Source: Prevotella sp. (GTDB lineage Bacteria > Bacteroidota > Bacteroidia > Bacteroidales > Bacteroidaceae). Taken from it: a stretch of DNA of 64,000 nt. A program made the position numbers and the translations under genes. Below are positions 3,021 to 16,176 of this stretch, piece by piece (the first letter of the stretch is position 1; each line of letters begins with the position of its first letter). The stretch is taken from positions 1 to 64,000 of the forward strand of contig JAFPVC010000028.1 in NCBI GenBank assembly GCA_017413085.1. The letters run 5' to 3'. The notes under the pieces are model-generated. The model was given only the letters and a program-made list of their open reading frames with translations. It ran no database searches and was not told the DNA's origin.

Positions 3021-3051
3021 TTTGCCGTTTCATTAAATATTCGTAACTTTG
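3021..3051 (+). promoter_or_regulatory. Bacteroidetes-type promoter of ridA
   Basis: TTTG at 3021-3024, a 19-bp spacer and TAACTTTG at 3044-3051 match the Bacteroidetes -33/-7 consensus. Transcription should begin about 6-8 bases downstream, inside the 5' arm of the branched hairpin element, giving a leader of roughly 120 nt before ridA. Confidence 0.75.
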
Positions 3052-3115
3052 CACTCGTAAACTCGCCAAGGCGACCACGAGCCTGCTTCGCAGACACTCG
3101 TTGTTTACTTCGTGC
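3051..3115 (+). repeat. Branched hairpin element, copy 1 (ridA leader)
   Basis: The element is bounded by GCACTCGTAAAC (3051-3062) and GTTTACTTCGTGC (3103-3115), which pair imperfectly. Inside are two arms: TCGCC-AA-GGCGA (3063-3074), and ACGAG-C-CTGC-TTC-GCAG-ACA-CTCGT (3077-3101). It starts within the -7 box of the ridA promoter. Four further copies lie at 9267-9400 and 10257-10384. Confidence 0.75.
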
Positions 3116-3180
3116 GATAATATTGCACCAAGAATAATTGAAGGATGGAAAAATTGAAAAATTGAAGTTATAAGAAACAC

Positions 3181-3564
3181 ATGAAGAAAACAATCAGCAC
3201 AGCAAAAGCACCGGCCGCCATTGGCCCGTACAGTCAGGCAATACAAGTTGGTAACCTTGTCTATACATCAGGACAGATTCCCATCGACCCTGCAACAGGA
3301 AACCTTGTAGAAGGCGGCATCAAGGAACAGGCACGACAGGCACTGAAGAATATTCAGGCAATACTTCAGGAAGCAGGCCTGTCAATGGCAAACGTCATCA
3401 AGACTACTGTCTTCATGGCCGATATGAATGACTTTGCCGACATGAACGCCGTATATGGAGAATTCTTCTCCGAACCCTACCCTGCCCGCTCTGCAGTGGC
3501 AGTGAAGACACTGCCGAAAGGAGCGCTGACAGAAATAGAAGTGATTGCAGAATTAAAGAATTGA
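3181..3564 (+). CDS. ridA: RidA family reactive enamine/imine deaminase
   Basis: This 127-residue protein has the RidA/YjgF/UK114 pattern throughout: IGPYSQAI near the N-terminus, YTSGQIPIDP, VIKTTVFMADMNDFADMN in the middle, and PARSAVAV with the substrate-binding arginine, then GALTEIEVIA. The family hydrolyses 2-aminoacrylate and related reactive enamines released by PLP enzymes. The size is typical. The last residues, ELKN, and the stop codon lie in a GAATTAAAGAATTGA repeat that also ends two other genes here, so they may not be ancestral. Confidence 0.95.
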   Translation: MKKTISTAKAPAAIGPYSQAIQVGNLVYTSGQIPIDPATGNLVEGGIKEQARQALKNIQAILQEAGLSMANVIKTTVFMADMNDFADMNAVYGEFFSEPYPARSAVAVKTLPKGALTEIEVIAELKN

Positions 3565-3631
3565 AGAGTTGAAGGATTGAAGAATTGAAGAATTGAAAAA
3601 CGGAAGTAGTTATCAGAGCAATTAATAACTA

Positions 3632-6759: not shown

Positions 6760-9141
6760 TTAATTCTTAACCAGTCTTACTTCATATATCTCACCTATCT
6801 GCTTGCGTGGCTTGGCCACGAACTTCACACGCACCTGCTGCTTGCCTTTCAACAATTCTGCCGGCACTGGATAGGTTTCATACTTAAATTCCGAGATGCG
6901 GTACTTGCCTGTGTTGTTCACTTCCTTGACAAGCACGTCATCAACATAGATGTCAAACTCATGGGTCTTCCATTCACCCACACCCCAGTATTTCAGTTGC
7001 AGACTGAGTTCTGTCTGTCCGCCGGTCTGCATCAGGTAACTGAAGTAGTGGCCGTCGCGTGCATCACGATAGAAGGTGTCGTTGGTGTTGCCCACGTTTG
7101 AACGGTCGGTCTCCATCTTATGGTCTGTCTCAGGCTGCTGTTCGCCCGGCTGCACCTTATCCACGGTGCGTGCCTCAAGTGCCTGACGCTCCTGCTCCTG
7201 CTTGGCAAGGTTGTCAAGATAACCCTTGTAGTTCTGCTCCGTCAGTGCAAGCCAGTATATCATGTAACGTGAGTCGTGTATCTCGAAGAAAGGCATCAGT
7301 TCGTTGTGTATGCCGTTCTCCATCTTTGTCGCCAGGGTATAGTGCAGCGGCTTTCCTGCTACGGGCTGCAACTGATCTGCAATGCCATCGATGTTGTCGT
7401 TGATGAGTATCGGAGCCTTGTCTATGGGCAGTTTCTTGCCGCCGGCATACTGTCCGAAACGGCTGTCGTCGGCAATGAGGTGAGCCAGGTCTTCGGTGCC
7501 GGTCTTCATGCCGAGCAGTATCGGACCGTGCATCAGTGCAACATACTGCGGCACGTTTGGCAGGTATTTCACGCTGTTGTGCATTGGGAAGGTGATGTCT
7601 ATGACGTCGCCTTTCTTCCATTTACGGTCAATGCTGACGTATGACGACGGACCTGTGACGATGCTTACAGGCTGTCCGTTTACCTTCACCTCAAACTCTC
7701 CCGGCTTCACCCACGCAGGATAGCGCACCAGGATTGTCTGTGCATTGCGCGCCGCGCATTGCGTAACGGTGATGCGGCTTGTCTCTGCGTATGGGAACTG
7801 TGTCTCCTGGCGCAGCACCATGCCCTTCTCCTTCCAGTTCAGTTCTGAAGCCACGAAGAGGTTCACGAAGAGCGCATCGCCCTTGTGTGTATATACAAAC
7901 TGTCCGTACTTGCCGTGGTTCTCCATGCCTGTACCCACGCAGCACCACATTGCCTCGTTTGGTGCTGAATAGTTACGGTAGTGACGCGGACGTGCCGGCG
8001 TGAAATACACATAGCCGCCGTGCTCTGGATGCTGGCTCGACAGGATGTGGTTGAACGTAGCCAACTCATAGTAATCGGCATAGCGTGCCTCTGGATTGCG
8101 GCGGTGCATGTCCTCTGTCAGTTTCAGCATGTTGTTGGTGTTGCACGTCTCCGGACCGTCAATATCGTTGATGAAGTCGGTGCATGCCTCACGGCTCGGG
8201 AAGTGCTCGCGGCGGCTGTTGCCTCCGAAGGCGAGTGAACGCTCACCCGTCACGATGTCCCAGAAGAAGTCTGCTGCATTATGGTATGTCTCGTCGCCGC
8301 TCAGTTCGCTTATACGCTCAAAGCCCACCACCTTCGGCACCTGCGTGTTGGCGTGCATGTTGTCGAGGTTGTCCTGGCGCTGCGACATCGGCGTGAGCAG
8401 ACGGCGGTGTGAGAAACGGCGCGCCACGTCGAGGTATTTCTTTTCCTTGGTGATGGCGTAGGCATCGGCCAGCACCTCGTTCATGCCGCCATGCTCATTG
8501 CCCAGCATACGCTCCATCTGGTCGTCGGTAAGCCCTGCGGTAAGGTCGATGGCCCAGTCGCAGAAACCGAGGAAGAGGCGCTTAGCCTGCTCGTTGCCGC
8601 AATACAGCCATGCGTCGCGCAGACCGGCATACATCTTATGCAGGTTGTAGAACGGTGCCCACGAACCGAAGTATGTACCGAAGTCACCTTTCTTGAATGT
8701 TGACCAGATGCGCTCACTGTTAGGCATACCGCCCACGTAACCCCTGCCCCACTCCGGGTGATTCTTGATATTCGCATCAGCGCACTCCTGCAGTTCACTT
8801 ATCATGTACTCCATGCGCTTGCGGCACTCCTCGTTGCCCGTGGCTGCATTCATCGCCATGGCAGTAAGGTAGTGTCCACCCACGTGTCCGTCCAGTCCGT
8901 CCCAGTTGGGATAAGTCTTTGCCTTGGGTTCCAGTCCGGCTTCCTTGCGGTATGGAGCCAGCAGCCTGTCGCAGTCATACTGCAACAGAGTTTTGATGTT
9001 CAGGTCGCGAGCCTTCTTCAGTGGACCGTCCAACAGTGTGACGTCGCCGATTGGAAACTCGTCGCTGTAGAGTTTGTCCTGCGCCTCAGCCATCGTGCCG
9101 ACGGCGAGCAGTGCAGAAAGGATAAAGATTTTCTTTTTCAT
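6760..9141 (-). CDS. GH127 beta-L-arabinofuranosidase-type glycoside hydrolase
   Basis: Started at the ATG that opens the signal peptide (MKKKIFILSALLAVGTMAEA; the upstream extension to 9204 is repeat sequence), the product is about 793 residues. It is a DUF1680/GH127 alpha-alpha barrel enzyme with a C-terminal beta domain. The zinc/cysteine site seen in Bifidobacterium HypBA1 is recognisable: an E-x-C motif (PETCN, about residues 330-332) and a C-C pair (MWCCVGTG, about 398-399). GH127 removes beta-L-arabinofuranose. A role in trimming arabinose-bearing plant polymers is inferred. The 250-bp leader holds two branched hairpin elements behind a TAACTTTG box at 9400-9407. Confidence 0.88.
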   Translation of the reverse strand: MKKKIFILSALLAVGTMAEAQDKLYSDEFPIGDVTLLDGPLKKARDLNIKTLLQYDCDRLLAPYRKEAGLEPKAKTYPNWDGLDGHVGGHYLTAMAMNAATGNEECRKRMEYMISELQECADANIKNHPEWGRGYVGGMPNSERIWSTFKKGDFGTYFGSWAPFYNLHKMYAGLRDAWLYCGNEQAKRLFLGFCDWAIDLTAGLTDDQMERMLGNEHGGMNEVLADAYAITKEKKYLDVARRFSHRRLLTPMSQRQDNLDNMHANTQVPKVVGFERISELSGDETYHNAADFFWDIVTGERSLAFGGNSRREHFPSREACTDFINDIDGPETCNTNNMLKLTEDMHRRNPEARYADYYELATFNHILSSQHPEHGGYVYFTPARPRHYRNYSAPNEAMWCCVGTGMENHGKYGQFVYTHKGDALFVNLFVASELNWKEKGMVLRQETQFPYAETSRITVTQCAARNAQTILVRYPAWVKPGEFEVKVNGQPVSIVTGPSSYVSIDRKWKKGDVIDITFPMHNSVKYLPNVPQYVALMHGPILLGMKTGTEDLAHLIADDSRFGQYAGGKKLPIDKAPILINDNIDGIADQLQPVAGKPLHYTLATKMENGIHNELMPFFEIHDSRYMIYWLALTEQNYKGYLDNLAKQEQERQALEARTVDKVQPGEQQPETDHKMETDRSNVGNTNDTFYRDARDGHYFSYLMQTGGQTELSLQLKYWGVGEWKTHEFDIYVDDVLVKEVNNTGKYRISEFKYETYPVPAELLKGKQQVRVKFVAKPRKQIGEIYEVRLVKN

Positions 9142-9266
9142 TAATATTTTGTTTGTTAGATTAAGAGTTGAAGGATGGAAAGATGGAAGAATGGAAGTTG
9201 CCATGCGGGAATAACTTCAATTTTTCAATTCTTCAATTCTTTCATTTTTCATGGTGCAATGTTATC

Positions 9267-9326
9267 GCACGAAGTAAATAGTGCGTGTCAATCGAAGATT
9301 GGCGCACGTCTCTGATTTACGAGTGC
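9267..9326 (-). repeat. Branched hairpin element, diverged copy with compensated stems
   Basis: Read on the minus strand, the outer arms are GCACTCGTAAAT and ATTTACTTCGTGC. The main arm is GTGCG-C-CAATC-TTC-GATTG-ACA-CGCAC. Compared with the other copies, the paired bases differ on both sides of the stems, while the TTC loop, the single C bulge and the ACA bulge are kept. The small TCGCC/GGCGA arm is lost. It is the second of two tandem units in the GH127 leader. Confidence 0.7.
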
Positions 9327-9335
9327 AATATTATC

Positions 9336-9400
9336 GCACGAAGTAAACAACGAGTGTCTGCGAAGCAGGCTCGTGGTCGCCTTGGCGAGTTTACGAGTGC
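9336..9400 (-). repeat. Branched hairpin element, first unit of the GH127 leader
   Basis: This copy is essentially identical to the one at 3051-3115, on the opposite strand. It again starts inside the TAACTTTGC box (9399-9407) facing GH127. It is followed by GATAATATT and then the diverged unit. Confidence 0.75.
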
Positions 9401-9407
9401 AAAGTTA
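9400..9407 (-). promoter_or_regulatory. -7 box (TAACTTTG) facing the GH127 gene
   Basis: TAACTTTG on the minus strand matches the Bacteroidetes -7 consensus. No good TTTG lies 19-21 bp upstream, so the promoter may be weak or activator-dependent. The predicted leader to the GH127 start is about 250 nt and contains both branched hairpin units. Confidence 0.55.
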
Positions 9408-9519
9408 CTAATTTATTTTCAATTACGATGCATGCGGCATGTCTGTTTACCGTGATGTATGTTTCATGTTTTGCGTGTTTTTGTTACATGGCCACGAAAC
9501 ATCTGCATGAGGATTATTT

Positions 9520-9592: not shown

Positions 9593-9695
9593 TTTGGACA
9601 ACGGTATTAAACGGAAATTGAAATTCGCAGGTAGTTTTTCAGAAACGAATTTCCATAATCAACCTTAATTTCATTCATAAATTAATCTTTGGTAT

Positions 9696-9710
9696 GCCAC
9701 TTTGTGGCAG
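9696..9710. repeat. TGCCAC-TTT-GTGGCA hairpin repeat
   Basis: This is a perfect 6-bp stem with a 3-base loop, in the context TTTGGTATGCCACT...GGCAGAAGG...CGATAATAAAT. The sister copy at 2872-2886 has a TTC loop and carries an extra GCC-GAA-GGC mini hairpin. Both are REP-like in form. Confidence 0.6.
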
Positions 9711-9955
9711 AAGGCGATAATAAATGGTGCCAGACTTAACTATAACTAACGACATCTGCAAACGACCAAAACGAGGAAAAGTGTTAAAAATACGTTATTT
9801 TCAGCGGAAACATATATAAAAATGGTATTTTCCGCTGATTATAGAGAGTTTTTCATTGTATTTCCAGCGGATTTTTATAAAAATATAGTTGTCCCAGAGA
9901 AGCCTATATCCGACATTTACGTAAATGTTAAAAATGTTAAGTTTTCTTAATGCGG

Positions 9956-10041
9956 TGTAATCAGGCCTTAATTACAATGTAATTAGCACCTGATCAGGTG
10001 GTAATCAGACCCTGATTATGCAGTAATTTGGGCCTAATTAG
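9956..10041. repeat. Array of four palindromic GTAAT units, copy 1
   Basis: There are four adjacent units of 21-22 bp at 9956-9977, 9978-9998, 9999-10020 and 10021-10041. Each is a near-palindrome of the form GTAATnAGnnCCTnATTAC. A second four-unit array lies at 45894-45984. No gene overlaps it. Confidence 0.75.
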
Positions 10042-10256
10042 TGCACAATTCACAATGCATAATACATGATTTTAGCGTAAATCTCGCATTTTTTACCCCG
10101 CATGACATAATTGAACATTGTGAATTATGCATTGTGAATTAAAAAAAGCTTTTTAAGCCGCCTCTACGCGATTCTACCCCCGTTGTGGGCTCCTTGCCCA
10201 TCACACCCCTTTACCCCTGCTTAAAATGAGTTTTCTTGGGAGTGGAGAAATTGGAC

Positions 10257-10309
10257 AACGAGTGTCTGCGAAGCAGGCTCGTGGTCGCCTTTGGCGAGTT
10301 TACGAGTGC
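10257..10309 (-). repeat. Branched hairpin element, 3'-truncated copy
   Basis: This unit has both internal arms (TCGCC-AAA-GGCGA and the TTC-loop arm), but the 3' outer arm GTTTACTTCGTGC is missing and is replaced by unique sequence. It is the distal unit of a tandem pair reading leftward. Confidence 0.65.
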
Positions 10310-10318
10310 AATATTATC

Positions 10319-10391
10319 GCCCGAAGTAAACAACGAGTGTCTGCGAAGCAGGCTCGTGGTCGCCTTTGGCGAGTTTACGAGTGCAAAGTTA
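10319..10391 (-). repeat. Branched hairpin element with its own -7 box, no gene downstream
   Basis: The element spans 10319-10384 and is preceded on the minus strand by TAACTTTGC (10383-10391). Both internal arms are intact. The small arm has an AAA loop here instead of AA. Transcription from this box would run leftward into the repeat island, where I find no coding sequence, and diverge from the CDF gene. Confidence 0.65.
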
Positions 10392-10492: not shown

Positions 10493-11386
10493 ATGGATAG
10501 AAACAAGGAAATATACAGTGTGACACTGGCGGGCGGTGCAGTGAACGTGGTGCTGCTTGTCTTTAAGTTTGTGGCGGGCATAATGGGCCACAGTGCCGCC
10601 ATGGTGGCCGACGCCATACACTCGCTCAGCGACTTCATAACCGATGCCATAGTACTCATATTCGTACACATCAGCGGCATGCCCAAGGACAAGACACACG
10701 ACTATGGCCACGGCAAGTATGAGACGCTTGCCATGACCATCATCGGCGTGGCACTACTGGCTGTGGCTGCCGGCATTGTCTATGGCGGCACAATGAAGGT
10801 GGCGGCATGGATGCGCGGTGAAGCAATAGAGGCTCCCGGCACGCTTGCTCTGTGGGCGGCACTGCTGTCGGTGGTGCTGAAAGAGGGTGTATACCGCTAT
10901 TCTATGGTGAAGGCACGCAAACTCAATTCACAGGCGGTGGAGGCCAACGCATGGCATCACCGCAGCGATGCGCTGTCGTCAGCAGGCACGGCGGTGGGCA
11001 TCGGTGGAGCAATATTCCTCGGAGAGCGATGGACGGTGCTCGACCCTGCGGCATCAATCATAGTAGGGCTGTTCATAGCAAAGGTGTCGCTCAGCCTACT
11101 GCGCGACGGCATAGGCGACCTAATGGAACGGTCGCTGCCCGACGAAGTGGAAGCAGAGATTCTGCGCATAGCAGCATCGGTAGACGGAGTGGCAGAGCCT
11201 CACGACCTGCGCACACGCCGCATAGGCAACCACTATGCCATTGAGATGCACATCATGATGGACGGCGGCATGACACTGCGCGAGGCACACGACAAAGCCT
11301 CAGAAGTAGAGGAACTCCTGAGGCTTCATTATGGAAACGAGACTCACATAGCCGTGCATGTGGAGCCGGAAGAATTAAAGAATTGA
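10493..11386 (+). CDS. Cation diffusion facilitator family transporter
   Basis: Started at the ATG after the -7 box, the product is 297 residues. A longer reading frame back to 10226 is translated repeat and sits upstream of the promoter. The protein has six membrane segments and the CDF metal site: HSLSDFITDA in TM2 and HHRSDALSS in TM5 supply H/D ligands. A cytoplasmic C-terminal domain with conserved histidines follows (YAIEMHIMMDGGMTL, HIAVHVEPE). The family exports Zn2+, Fe2+ or Mn2+ by proton antiport; the metal cannot be assigned. The C-terminal ELKN plus stop come from a GAATTAAAGAATTGA repeat. Confidence 0.92.
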   Translation: MDRNKEIYSVTLAGGAVNVVLLVFKFVAGIMGHSAAMVADAIHSLSDFITDAIVLIFVHISGMPKDKTHDYGHGKYETLAMTIIGVALLAVAAGIVYGGTMKVAAWMRGEAIEAPGTLALWAALLSVVLKEGVYRYSMVKARKLNSQAVEANAWHHRSDALSSAGTAVGIGGAIFLGERWTVLDPAASIIVGLFIAKVSLSLLRDGIGDLMERSLPDEVEAEILRIAASVDGVAEPHDLRTRRIGNHYAIEMHIMMDGGMTLREAHDKASEVEELLRLHYGNETHIAVHVEPEELKN

Positions 11387-11500
11387 AAAATTAAAGAATT
11401 GAAGAATTGAAGTTTTTACCGCATGGCAACTTCCATTCTTCAATCCTTCAATTCTTCAACTCTTCAATCCTTCAATTCTTCAACTCTTCAATTCTTAAAA
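11380..11500. repeat. GAAGAATTGAAG inverted repeat with CCGCATGG core
   Basis: Repeats of GAATTGAA (11380-11412) are followed by the core TTACCGCATGGCAAC (about 11417-11431) and then by their reverse complement, CTTCAATCCTTCAATTCTTC (11433-11495). The structure can form a long hairpin exactly at the convergent ends of the CDF and GH31 genes, and probably works as a bidirectional terminator. Confidence 0.65.
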
Positions 11501-13918
11501 TTTCACCTTTATTACCTTGCCGGTATAATTGATGGTTTTCGTCTGTCCGTTTGACAGCTTCACGATAAAGGTGCGATTCTCTGACATTCCGTTGTAGCTG
11601 CCTGTTCTATTGCCGATTTTCAGTGTGTGGGTCTTGTCTATCCACTCCATCGGAATCTCGGAATACTGTCCGCGCTCGTAGTTGTAGTTGTCACCCTCGT
11701 CTTCATACAGCACGAAGCTGGCGTTCTTTCCTGCGTAGATGTTCAGTGTCACCTCCCTGCCTATCTGTGCTGCGGAGTATTCTGTCACCGGCGCCGTGGG
11801 GATGATGCTTCCAGCACGTACATAGAGCGGGAAGGTGTCTATCGTCACCGGTGCCTTCAGTGTTTGTCCGCCGGTGTATTCCTTGCCTGTCCAGTAGTCT
11901 ATCCATGTCGCACCTTTAGGAAGATACACGTCACGACTCGTGGCATGGGCCTCTGTCACAGGGCATACGAGGAACGCCGGGCCCAGCATGTATTCGTCCT
12001 TTATGTCGAGGACGTTTGCATCACCGGCAAAGTCGAAGGCAAGCATACGCGCCATGGTGTAGTCACGGTGTGTTGTCCATCCCGCCATGCTATATAGATA
12101 AGGTATCATCTCATAGCGCAGGTTTATCATCTTCAGGATGGCATCGTAGTATGGTGTGCCGGGTTCGCCAAACTGCCATATCTCGCGCGGTGTGTCGGTG
12201 CCGTGACTGCGCAGCATCGGAAGGAATGTGCCCCACTGGAACATACGCGTGTAGTATTCGCGGTATTCCGGGTCGCGCACTCCCTGCGGAAACTCTCCCT
12301 TGTTGAACCAGCGGCTGTCGTTCTTCGTGAAGAACGAGCCTACGTCCACCGTCCAGTACGGACAGCCCGTGGCCATGAAGTTCAGTCCGGCAGGTATCTG
12401 CTGGCGGAACGACTTCCACGAGGCATGTGTGTCGCCGTTCCATGTAATGGTGGCATAGCGCTGCTGACCGGCATATGAACTGCGCGTGAGGTTGAGCACA
12501 CGCTTCTCCTGTGCGATGCCGGCAGCAAGGAGTGAATCCTGCTTCAAACGCTGGTTTTCATATATTCCCATGGCATGATAGAGGGAATAGAGCGAACTGC
12601 GCTCTGCGCCGAGGGCATCGGAAAGGATGTCCTGATTCTTGTGCCAGCGTTCCTCCTGACTGTCCCAGCCATAGTCGCCCAGTCCCCATGTCCAGTCACC
12701 GTCGAGGGGTTCCGAACAGTCGCACCACCATGCATCGAAGCCTTTGGAGAAGAACTCATGGTTGACGTATGACCAGTAATACTTGCGTGCATCCGCATTG
12801 AAGGCATCATACACGGAGTGTTCCAGCATATAGCCACGCTGCTTGAAGTCGTCGGCCTGCGGACAATACTGCGGGTTGGGCCAGATGCTGACCATCAGCT
12901 TCGCATTCATGGCATGCACAGAGTCGGCAAGGGCCTTGGGATTGGGATAGAACTTCGGATCCATCTTCATATACCCCCACCCTTGCGGCCAGTAGTTCCA
13001 GTCCTGCACTATCATGTCGATAGGCACATGACGGCGGCGGTATTCGCCCAGCGTGCGCAGTATGTCGTCGGAACTGACGTAGCGTTCCTTCGACTGCGTA
13101 TAGCCGAACATATAGCGCGGCATCATCGGGCACTCGCCCGTCAGGTATCTGTATTGCTTGACCACCGCATCCATGTTCTCGCCTGCCATAAAGTAATAGT
13201 CCATCTGCTTGGCAGCCTCAAACTCGATATAGTCGTCCTGCATCTTCATGGCACAGCCGGCATCAAAGAGCAAGCCGTATCCCCTGGTGGAGTTGAGCAC
13301 GGGAATCATTGCCTTGAGGTTGTGCTGGGTGAGGTACATGGTCTTGCCACGCAGGTTCATGTAGTCTTCCATGTGCGAACCGAGTCCGTAGAGAGCCTCA
13401 TCGTCCTGCCACAGGAAATGGTTGCGGTAGCGCCAACTGCGGCCTATGGTGTCGCGCCTTATTTCGTCCTTGACGGTAATCTTACCGTTGGCGGTCTCCA
13501 CGATACGCGCGGAAGAATCGTCATAGATGATGCGCTCCTGCACCACATGCTCAAAGTCGCGGGGCTTGTCAGTGCGCTCCGACAGCAACACCCTGCCCGA
13601 CTTCCTGTCACGGAATGTCACTGCCCCACTCTGCTTGTTTATCTCAACGACAAGGCTGTCGCCTATCAGACACACAACATTCTTGTCTGTCTTGCTCGGC
13701 ACTTCCTTTACCTTGACATCCTGCTGGCTGCGCTCTACGCATACGCCAGTAGTGCTATTATAAATCTGTCCGTCTGCCGAGAAGGAGACGTGCACGATGC
13801 TCGGCGTTACGAAAGCAACCGAAAGCTTACCGCCGTCGTGCATAAAAAAATGCACGTTCCCTGCCAGCAACGAAATTGCACTGGCAAGAAACGAGCATAT
13901 TGTAAGAAACTTTTTCAT
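11495..13918 (-). CDS. GH31 family alpha-glycosidase, exported
   Basis: The 807-residue protein has a signal peptide (MKKFLTICSFLASAISLLAG), an N-terminal galactose-mutarotase-like domain, a GH31 TIM barrel and a C-terminal DUF5110-like beta domain. The catalytic nucleophile is the aspartate in FDAWWCDCSEP (about residue 399). The acid/base is probably the aspartate in NGDTHASW (about 494). GH31 includes alpha-glucosidases and alpha-xylosidases. Specificity is not fixed by what I can see, but the neighbours favour a xylan- or xyloglucan-related substrate. It lies 56 bp after the GH43-esterase gene, likely in the same operon. Confidence 0.9.
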   Translation of the reverse strand: MKKFLTICSFLASAISLLAGNVHFFMHDGGKLSVAFVTPSIVHVSFSADGQIYNSTTGVCVERSQQDVKVKEVPSKTDKNVVCLIGDSLVVEINKQSGAVTFRDRKSGRVLLSERTDKPRDFEHVVQERIIYDDSSARIVETANGKITVKDEIRRDTIGRSWRYRNHFLWQDDEALYGLGSHMEDYMNLRGKTMYLTQHNLKAMIPVLNSTRGYGLLFDAGCAMKMQDDYIEFEAAKQMDYYFMAGENMDAVVKQYRYLTGECPMMPRYMFGYTQSKERYVSSDDILRTLGEYRRRHVPIDMIVQDWNYWPQGWGYMKMDPKFYPNPKALADSVHAMNAKLMVSIWPNPQYCPQADDFKQRGYMLEHSVYDAFNADARKYYWSYVNHEFFSKGFDAWWCDCSEPLDGDWTWGLGDYGWDSQEERWHKNQDILSDALGAERSSLYSLYHAMGIYENQRLKQDSLLAAGIAQEKRVLNLTRSSYAGQQRYATITWNGDTHASWKSFRQQIPAGLNFMATGCPYWTVDVGSFFTKNDSRWFNKGEFPQGVRDPEYREYYTRMFQWGTFLPMLRSHGTDTPREIWQFGEPGTPYYDAILKMINLRYEMIPYLYSMAGWTTHRDYTMARMLAFDFAGDANVLDIKDEYMLGPAFLVCPVTEAHATSRDVYLPKGATWIDYWTGKEYTGGQTLKAPVTIDTFPLYVRAGSIIPTAPVTEYSAAQIGREVTLNIYAGKNASFVLYEDEGDNYNYERGQYSEIPMEWIDKTHTLKIGNRTGSYNGMSENRTFIVKLSNGQTKTINYTGKVIKVKF

Positions 13919-13974
13919 CTTTCGACTTTCAACACTTTAATTCTTCAACTCTTCAATATTTCAATTCTTCCACA

Positions 13975-16176
13975 TTACTTAACCTTGCTGTTCTTCTCAA
14001 TGGTCCAGTCCTTGCGTTTCAGTATTCCGCAGTCCTTGCCTACGAACATCTTGGAAGCGTCCTTGTTGCCCTTGAGTTGCCAGTCGAGCCATGCAACGGC
14101 AGGAATAGAGAACTCACCACCATGAGGCTTGCGGTATGTACCGCCGTGACCTACAGGATAGTTGACGGCAATGGCCGGCACATGGTCTATGCGGTGGAAG
14201 TCGTCCATGCCGTTCTTGTAGGCAATGTCGGTCTCACCGCCGAGGATGTAGATCACCGGTGTATGGATGTCCTTCAGCTTATCCTTGCCAGGCATAGGCA
14301 TGTTAGGCATGGCAATGCTTGGGTCGAGGAACAGTCCGCTGTTGCAAATCATCAATGCTGTGATGCGCTTGTCGGCACAGTTGAAGAGGCTCTGCAGACC
14401 ACCGCACGACATGCCTGCCACGCAGATGTTCTTAGTGTCAACCTTGCCATAAAACGGACTGTTCTTGTCATTGTTCTGTGCGATAATCCAGTCTATCGAC
14501 TCTATCTGCTGCTCCGGCTTAGACATCTCGCCACGATATGGCGTGTCGCCCTCAGGGATATAGCCCGTTGCAAGAACGATGTAGCCGTGTGAGGCAATCT
14601 CGTTGAGGAAACGATAATGCTCCCAAGGAGAGTTAGTGCATGCACCGTTGCCCCATACGAGTATGGGAAGAGGATTCTTATTGTTGAACTTAGACATATC
14701 CGCTGGCATGAACACGGTATGGGCATCAAAGCCATCAAACTCCTGCATCACTGCCTTGTAATCGCCTATGCCGCCATCCTCAACCGTAACGGAACTTGTA
14801 ACGTCACCTTTCTTGAGAGGTTCCATCTGCCACCAGTCAAAGTTGAAGAGGTTCTTCTTCTGGAGTCGGCTGCCCTTGAACACGAAATAGAGGTCGTGCT
14901 TGCCGTTTACCGGCTCAAGCACAGTAGTGAACTCACGATACTTGAACTGTGTATTGGTAACTGTCACGTTGCCGATGACCTTGCCTTCCACGCCGTCAAT
15001 GCGTATCTCTATCTTGCCACCCTCAAGGAGAGCAGAGCAAGAAGCCGTGAACTTAATCTTGCCCTTGTCTCTGCCGAAGTCAACGCCACGGAGCTGAATG
15101 TACTCGCCATCGTCAATGTTCGTGACAAAGAGAGTAGGATTCCAAGGGCCGGAAGGATTCTCGCGTGTAGTGCGCAGCCCATAGCCCCACGCCATTGTCT
15201 CAGTCTCAACACGGCGGTAAGGATTGAATGAGCCAACCTGGTTGAGTTCGCAATGCAGAAAATAAGGAAGTTCCTGAATCGTTCCGTCCTCGTTGTATGT
15301 CATCTCTGCCGCCGATACGCTGCGCTGCTCTGCATGCGCACTCGTCTCCATGCGGTAGATGTCGTAGTTGAGTCCGAAGCAATACGACTTACCCTTGAAG
15401 TCGATGATACCCGGATGGTTGCCTCGTGTCTGAGGTGTGTGGTTCATAATATGTCCCTTGTATTCCCATGGGCCTGTAGCCTTGTCACTCATGGCATAGC
15501 CGATACCCTCAGGACAGCATGTGGAAGCAAATGCCATGTAGTATTTCTTCTGTCCCTTCGCATTCTTGCGGCTCCAGAACCAAGGGCCTTCCTGATAGTC
15601 CTTGATTTTCGGATGTTCTACGATGTCGCCGGAATAAGAAATCATGTCCTCGTTGAGCTTAACCATGTAGAGATTAGGATTGCCCCAATACATGTAAGCC
15701 TGGCCGTCGTCGTCAATCCACACCGTTGGGTCAATGTCATACCAATGGTCCTTCTGCCACACAAGCGGCTTACCAAGAGGGTCTTTGAACGGACCGTAGG
15801 GAGAGTCTGCCACAAGCACGCCTATTCCATTACCGTGGATAGGACAGTACATGTACCACTTGCCGTTACGTTCGATAACCTGTTCTGCCCATGCGCCATT
15901 GTCGCCCTTATACCACTTGAAGTTACGGAGCGAAGCCACTGCGCCGTGGTCTTCCCAGTTCACCATGTCGGTGGAAGTATAGAGCAGCCAGTCCTTCATA
16001 AGGAAACCACCTGCGCCCTCCTCGTCATGAGTTGTATATAGATACACCGTGTCGCCATGCACATAAGGTGCAGGGTCAGCAGTGTACTTTGTCTGAATGA
16101 TTGGCAGATTGAGTTGCTGGGCATCAGCAGTTGAGAATACTCCCAACGCCATGCATAAACCTAATAAATGTTTCAT
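13975..16176 (-). CDS. GH43 glycosidase - CBM6-like - esterase fusion
   Basis: The 733-residue protein carries a signal peptide ending ADAQQ. Residues about 25-340 form a GH43 five-blade propeller with its acidic triad: D in TADPAP (about 33), D in DIDPTVWIDD (about 150) and E in EGPWFW (about 194). Residues about 350-450 look like a CBM6-type beta sandwich. The C-terminal 250 residues are an alpha/beta hydrolase with nucleophile serine in GMSCGG (about 588), D in GGETDIAY (about 648) and H in VGHGGTY (about 676). GH43 usually removes arabinose or xylose from xylan. The esterase could remove acetyl or feruloyl groups from the same chains. Confidence 0.85.
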   Translation of the reverse strand: MKHLLGLCMALGVFSTADAQQLNLPIIQTKYTADPAPYVHGDTVYLYTTHDEEGAGGFLMKDWLLYTSTDMVNWEDHGAVASLRNFKWYKGDNGAWAEQVIERNGKWYMYCPIHGNGIGVLVADSPYGPFKDPLGKPLVWQKDHWYDIDPTVWIDDDGQAYMYWGNPNLYMVKLNEDMISYSGDIVEHPKIKDYQEGPWFWSRKNAKGQKKYYMAFASTCCPEGIGYAMSDKATGPWEYKGHIMNHTPQTRGNHPGIIDFKGKSYCFGLNYDIYRMETSAHAEQRSVSAAEMTYNEDGTIQELPYFLHCELNQVGSFNPYRRVETETMAWGYGLRTTRENPSGPWNPTLFVTNIDDGEYIQLRGVDFGRDKGKIKFTASCSALLEGGKIEIRIDGVEGKVIGNVTVTNTQFKYREFTTVLEPVNGKHDLYFVFKGSRLQKKNLFNFDWWQMEPLKKGDVTSSVTVEDGGIGDYKAVMQEFDGFDAHTVFMPADMSKFNNKNPLPILVWGNGACTNSPWEHYRFLNEIASHGYIVLATGYIPEGDTPYRGEMSKPEQQIESIDWIIAQNNDKNSPFYGKVDTKNICVAGMSCGGLQSLFNCADKRITALMICNSGLFLDPSIAMPNMPMPGKDKLKDIHTPVIYILGGETDIAYKNGMDDFHRIDHVPAIAVNYPVGHGGTYRKPHGGEFSIPAVAWLDWQLKGNKDASKMFVGKDCGILKRKDWTIEKNSKVK

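Follow-up and report, generated by a model that had tools for sequence, protein, structure and literature searches.

A structure-conserved hairpin repeat at the -7 boxes of Prevotella promoters, with unit numbers that vary between close relatives

The window analysed here, a stretch of 64,000 nucleotides of Prevotella DNA, contains three arrays of a hairpin unit of about 65 bases, which raises the question of whether this unit acts as an RNA leader or is a REP-like mobile element, the two possibilities named in the first-pass annotation. The arrays comprise one unit on the forward strand (3051-3117) and two pairs of units on the reverse strand (9400-9265 and 10384-10257). As had been claimed, they start in -7 boxes: all three begin in GTAACTTTGC, with the leading units at 3051 (forward), 9400 (reverse) and 10384 (reverse). 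The features of the three arrays are the following.

3021 to 3024, forward strand: TTTG at the -33 position of the first array, read from the sequence (TTG peaks at the same distance over 116 arrays)
3044 to 3051, forward strand: -7 box TAACTTTG, read from the sequence; the unit starts with the last G of the box
3051 to 3117, forward strand: type A unit with outer stem, stem 2, arm 1 and arm 2 (model match 94.7 bits)
3123 to 3128, forward strand: TTGCAC 3' of the unit, repeating the TTGCAC at the unit start, read from the sequence
3181 to 3564, forward strand: downstream gene, ridA-like (Ribonuc_L-PSP, Pfam)
9400 to 9407, reverse strand: -7 box TAACTTTG of the second array, read from the sequence
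9334 to 9400, reverse strand: type A unit, leading (model match 94.7 bits)
9265 to 9326, reverse strand: type B unit, without arm 1; arm 2 is GTGCG-C-CAATC/GATTG-ACA-CGCAC (model match 50.6 bits)
6760 to 9204, reverse strand: downstream gene with a GH127 catalytic domain (Pfam, first 400 amino acids searched)
10384 to 10391, reverse strand: -7 box TAACTTTG of the third array, read from the sequence
10317 to 10384, reverse strand: type A unit, leading (model match 86.5 bits)
10257 to 10309, reverse strand: second unit, truncated before the 3' outer strand (model match 10242-10309, 50.9 bits)

Reading of the sequence confirmed the positions of all five copies recognised in the first-pass annotation, as well as the stem exchanges that it had named between the common copies and the one at 9265-9326, in which the C/ACA bulge is retained. 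Two generalisations had to be narrowed. The inner TCGCC/GGCGA arm, described for all five copies, is missing from the copy at 9265-9326, which has CAGAGAC there and represents a second subfamily (type B), and the outer pairing is impossible in the copy at 10257-10309, which is cut before the 3' outer strand. The copies folded beyond chance, with z-scores from -1.7 to -3.6 in the seven stretches folded.

Units are about 60-70 bp long and follow each other head to tail every 68-83 bp, in the arrays of this genome usually joined by TTGCAC. The type A fold consists of an outer stem (GCAC/GTGC), stem 2 (GTAAAC/GTTTAC), arm 1 (TCGC/GCGA) and arm 2 (ACGAG-C-CTGC/GCAG-ACA-CTCGT), and type B has CAGAGAC in place of arm 1. 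Between the subfamilies the sequence of stem 2 is swapped (GTAAAC, GCAAAC, AGGAAA) with complementarity retained, and two unpaired features, the C/ACA bulge and one base ahead of stem 2, persist in both. Uncorrected for shared descent, as are all covariation figures given here, 95.3% of 573 cells were paired in 25 distinct type A rows, and 11 of the 23 pairs had changed on both sides. Four of five compensatory measures lay above all 500 shuffles, and the fifth, which counts further pair types, showed no excess (500/500 shuffles were as high). When the partners were slid by 1-3 columns as a control, the paired cells fell to 24-46%. Type B showed double changes in 6 of 20 predicted pairs. Moreover, in 91 distinct rows from other assemblies, aligned to the covariance model, 96.0% of 1833 cells paired, double changes occurred in 18 of 23 pairs and all five measures exceeded every shuffle. 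The outer stem had zero double changes in both the 25 type A rows and the 91 other-assembly rows; it was intact in 64/80 single-unit arrays, in 35/47 leading units of longer arrays and in 27/54 later units, and is thus well kept without support from covariation.

The family extends far beyond the window. The first copy, used as a BLAST query, had 32 matches in the genome of the window and, among 60 genomes, matches in two, this one included. For a wider search a covariance model, R1, was made from 26 type A rows, 25 of this genome and one of genome G007. In the genome of the window it gave 45 matches at E up to 1, of which 41 were at E<1e-4. Across the genus it matched in at least 21 of 398 genomes (this one included) and across the order in one of 393 (this one), both of which are lower bounds, as 13 candidates per genome were scored under strict filters. 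A gapped DNA pattern recovered 64 stretches from GTDB species genomes, all titled MAG and nearly all titled Prevotella, Prevotellaceae or Bacteroidales; a rumen or reticulum sample is given in a few, and RUG in a title presumably stands for rumen genomes. The first-pass annotation had argued for selection on structure and had proposed a covariance-model search; the numerous covarying copies found in this and other genomes of the genus indeed support a conserved structure.

A phage or plasmid origin was rejected, since one exact pattern had zero matches in viral contigs and one type A copy had none among plasmid and phage records. A known RNA family was likewise rejected, as Rfam 15 gave zero matches over the whole window at gathering scores and zero for 9200-9450 at E up to 5. 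Among the titles and abstract openings returned by our literature searches none was on the element, which is apparently undescribed, as judged by these limited searches and Rfam.

The position of the unit relative to the promoter was nearly invariant. Directly before its first G, TAnnTTT was present in 114 of 121 distinct arrays (128 before merging those alike over 40 upstream bases and the first unit; since two routes led to some genomes, near-identical arrays may still be counted twice), and there the first unit begins exactly at the last G of TAnnTTTG. The remaining seven were two with TTACTTT, one N-masked, one at a contig edge and three fragments or weak matches. In 60/116 arrays a TTG occupies -30 or -29 relative to the start of the unit, which corresponds to the -33 box, and two further units of this genome likewise follow TAATTT. 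In genome G422 (Prevotella sp. isolate Tb.RUG.131, which holds locus L103) 35 of 37 arrays begin at TAnnTTTG and the other two are at contig ends. Placement at -7 boxes and in promoter direction holds for 114/121 arrays, as had been expected, and in these the unit lies on the sense strand at the transcript start, as judged by promoter consensus only (taken from PMC7366714). When TTTGCAC sites in rough non-gene sequence were compared, TAnn was present at 42/42 unit-bearing vs 28/50 unit-free sites (Fisher p = 1.3e-7; the loci were chosen for holding units and the gene mask is crude), and the position of the unit is beyond what the TTTGCAC motif alone explains.

The further suggestion that the element carries its own promoter end is not supported. 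The ispC promoter of G422 has TAACTTTG with no unit, the columns upstream of the box contain only promoter-like features, and the preference for the dinucleotides AC, AT and CC is shared by TAnnTTTGCA sites that lack a unit. The outer GCAC of a leading unit overlaps the -7 box. In Flavobacterium this box lies at -12 to -5 according to PMC9723704. If this spacing applies to Prevotella, the GCAC would be at -5 to -2, probably ahead of the first transcribed base, and the RNA of a single-unit leader would lack one strand of the outer stem and could not make that pairing.

The genes behind these promoters are diverse. A tRNA gene occurs within 500 bases of 11/121 arrays, five of them tRNA-Leu; these are tallies taken without a background promoter set and say nothing on enrichment of tRNA or core genes. 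At the tRNA-Leu(CAA) gene a unit is present in G007 as well as here, between flanks that do not resemble each other. Shortened units, consisting of stem 2 and arm 1 or less, were seen directly before tRNA genes at L014 (4710-4760), L007 (4926-4955) and L011. Pfam searches of 20 chosen downstream proteins revealed no common pathway: they included Ribonuc_L-PSP (ridA), GH127, LytTR, cation ATPase, an amino-acid kinase with an ACT domain, prephenate dehydratase, PDDEXK_2, DXP reductoisomerase (ispC), nitronate monooxygenase, a class I W/Y tRNA synthetase (trpS-like), lactate/malate dehydrogenase, signal peptidase II, RsfS, porphobilinogen deaminase, the aldehyde dehydrogenase family, PAPS reductase, leucyl-tRNA synthetase, dihydrodipicolinate synthetase, the phage-integrase family and a phosphopantetheine site.

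The comparison with G422 showed whole-unit differences between close relatives. Several long stretches of this genome match that of the window at about 95-98%, others less well, and R1 gave 60 matches in it at E up to 0.1, of which 59, in 37 arrays, were examined. The ridA promoter has one type A unit here and a type A followed by a type B unit in G422, and the ridA unit differs from its G422 partner at one loop base and one outer-stem base. Locus L009 has three units here and two in G422; the odd unit starts and ends at TTGCACTC, and this difference is clean and inside an array, where it could be a deletion. L045 has one unit here and two in G422, L003 has five type A units here and A plus B in G422, and trpS has one type B unit here and, at two contig ends in G422, a B unit with further mixed-arm units behind it. 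By contrast, the two genomes agree in their units at the array at 9400 and at the two arrays of L010. The ispC promoter carries two units here and none in G422, with TAACTTTG in both; since the genomes also differ upstream and in the bases that follow the box, this is no clean empty site. L012 was left out of the comparison, and the G422 counterparts of the 10384 array of the window and of L001 gave no upstream alignment. In these pairs, gain and loss are indistinguishable.

Mosaic units were also found in G422: at L146 and L149 a 5' half with AGGAAA is followed by a 3' half with GTTTAC, leaving stem 2 unpaired, and at L163 and L164 type A arm 1 is mixed with type B arm 2. Truncated units and remnants, such as the unit at 10257, occur as well. 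Missing from G422 is a segment of about 1.3 kb (4241-5530 of L006) in which a PDDEXK_2 gene and its promoter are accompanied by three units; the gene encodes a PD-(D/E)XK nuclease family transposase (PF12784), and the segment is a possible larger carrier of units. At L045, L148 and L177, among several arrays, similar DNA (AACAAAGGGGATTTCA...) precedes the box, hinting at duplicated promoter regions. Bursts of copying within single genomes were set aside, because the same-genome excess in a nearest-neighbour test was only modest (47/165 vs 30.7 expected).

If the sense RNA is under selection, G·U should clearly exceed A·C in stems. Among 189 distinct units (units with N or shorter than 58 bases left out; 54 type A by a rough pattern, with everything else, 135, counted as type B), the stem cells were 3582 Watson-Crick, 70 G·U, 115 A·C and 130 other, and without the outer stem 65 G·U and 75 A·C remained. 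The two were also about even in model-fitted alignments, which lean towards the model (29 vs 31 in A4 and 12 vs 17 in A3). A·C is thus no rarer than G·U, and selection on the sense RNA is not demonstrated by these counts. In 11 orthologous units of this genome and G422 (the ridA row left out), 13 differences fell on paired and 10 on unpaired sites; nine of the 13 break the pair in one genome, two give a wobble and two represent one compensatory double change. Folding energy by strand was discarded as evidence: the reverse strand folded better in 141 of 152 distinct units (those shorter than 55 bases left out), but shuffles explain most of this (3.19 observed, 2.57 shuffled). Among 15 array pairs before like proteins, four had an upstream identity of 0.43-0.63 (random mean 0.43), and the first units of these four were 0.69-0.84 identical (non-orthologous mean 0.72). 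Units at the same promoter despite diverged upstream DNA fit selection at some genes, or re-supply from other copies.

The observations describe a promoter-locked, structure-conserved, array-forming Prevotella repeat whose unit number varies between close relatives. We favour the reading that it is a non-coding hairpin repeat of the general REP/MITE kind, lodging at the -7 box between box and start site, with a probability of about 0.5. Units lie at the TTTGCA end of a sigma-A type -7 box, always in one orientation; the promoter remains intact, and the mRNA or tRNA leader would open with the unit. Copying to new sites may go through folded single-stranded DNA or through template switching between TTGCAC repeats, and promoters could be favoured since the DNA is open there. 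This reading is supported by the start of arrays at TAnnTTTG, here and in G422, beyond what the motif alone explains, by the whole-unit differences at ridA, L009, L045, L003 and trpS and the empty ispC promoter, by the mosaic units, truncated units and remnants, by A·C being no rarer than G·U in stems, by the broken pairs at nine of the 13 paired-site differences between orthologous units, and by the outer stem being intact in most single units though its 5' strand is probably untranscribed. It is weakened by finding no transposase tied to the element and no clean empty site, by the arrays at L010 and 9400 being alike in both genomes, by the retention of the unit at four diverged promoters, which a passive repeat would not need, and by the merely modest same-genome excess in the nearest-neighbour test. 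A narrower version of it, which we consider rather doubtful, is a mobile hairpin landing in the transcription bubble, whose folded single-stranded units would enter the melted stretch of open sigma-A promoters.

A functional RNA leader is a serious rival, if less probable than a REP/MITE-like repeat. The folded 5' end would protect the transcript, bind a protein or act on RNA polymerase, tandem units would add to the effect, and selection would retain the unit on leaders of core genes and tRNAs. The transcript-start position and single orientation, the strong covariation with the retained C/ACA bulge, the housekeeping genes and tRNAs downstream, the tRNA-Leu(CAA) unit shared with G007 between unlike flanks, and the same-promoter units in four pairs with strongly diverged upstream DNA are all consistent with it. 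However, G·U is not in excess over A·C, the outer stem of a single unit cannot form in the RNA if transcription starts about 5 nt after the box, yet single units keep it no worse than the leading units of longer arrays do, the downstream genes share no pathway, and unit number changes between close relatives. The structural part of the first-pass reading stands; of the two possibilities named at the outset, the whole-unit differences between close relatives favour the REP-like element, while units kept at the same gene in more distant relatives are compatible with the leader. Quasi-palindromes can be corrected by replication slippage or template switching between their arms, and such correction might keep the arms complementary in a passive repeat with no selection and no dedicated mover. 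The near equality of A·C and G·U outside the outer stem and the resemblance of the array changes to recombination between repeats agree with this, but arm correction should remove the C/ACA bulge and the unpaired base before stem 2, both of which survive in both subfamilies, and it gives no account of units being at promoters only, which makes it improbable. The least probable explanation is a double-stranded operator for a global regulator, overlapping the -7 box: the unit is palindromic and directly at promoters, yet a fixed-sequence operator would not allow the subfamilies to replace stem sequences while keeping complementarity.

A mover of the REP type was sought by a search for Y1_Tnp (PF01797), which found no transposase tied to the element. 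The genome of the window has one weak match (23.9 bits), with the element absent from the surrounding 2.3 kb and from its contig, and a match was present in 12/22 element-bearing vs 13/22 element-free genomes, many of them incomplete. A RAYT/IS200 origin was therefore rejected. With REP sequences the element shares the form of a short intergenic imperfect palindrome with many copies per genome and a structure kept better than its sequence; it differs in forming head-to-tail arrays of one orientation at the -7 box without an adjoining Y1 transposase gene. Like MITEs and PATEs it has no coding capacity, a short direct repeat (TTGCAC) at both ends and many copies, but no parent insertion sequence with the same ends was found in the PF01797 search; the TTGCAC repeat could be the target or part of the unit. 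Integron attC sites are imperfect palindromes of about 60 bp with unpaired bases too, whereas the arrays here hold units only, without gene cassettes. The HK022 put RNA is a folded element at the very 5' end of transcripts, as this one would be. With Flavo-1 (RF01705) and other Bacteroidetes leader motifs the element has in common that they are structured Bacteroidetes repeats without known function. Flavo-1 matches lie sense or antisense to transcribed regions and many lie outside them, according to PMC9723704, whereas our element has no Rfam match and is sense and at promoters in nearly all arrays.

A unit present in dozens of arrays in at least two genomes and tied to one promoter base position would shape the 5' ends of tRNAs and core genes, and differently so between close relatives. 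If mobile, its targeting rule would be open promoters, and we know of no REP-like repeat with such a rule. Landing in the transcription bubble, if true, would explain why units have a single orientation, keep a fixed distance to the -7 box and occur at genes that are expected to be busy; the element would then add leader modules to host genes with promoters unbroken. If it works as RNA, it would be a leader common to coding and tRNA genes and absent from Rfam.

Other repeats were noticed in the window. A separate multi-copy repeat of about 350 bp (9908-10258) has at least 10 matches in G422, some partial and some full, and its end coincides with the edge of the truncated unit at 10257. A 35-bp repeat with a small hairpin, GCCACTTCGTGGC, occurs at 2857-2891 and 9680-9714 (91% alike), both places being intergenic. 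Finally, intergenic tracts with an 8-bp period (GAATTGAA / TTCAATTC), several of them mutually inverted, are found at 3531-3623, 11353-11516, 13904-13981 and other positions.
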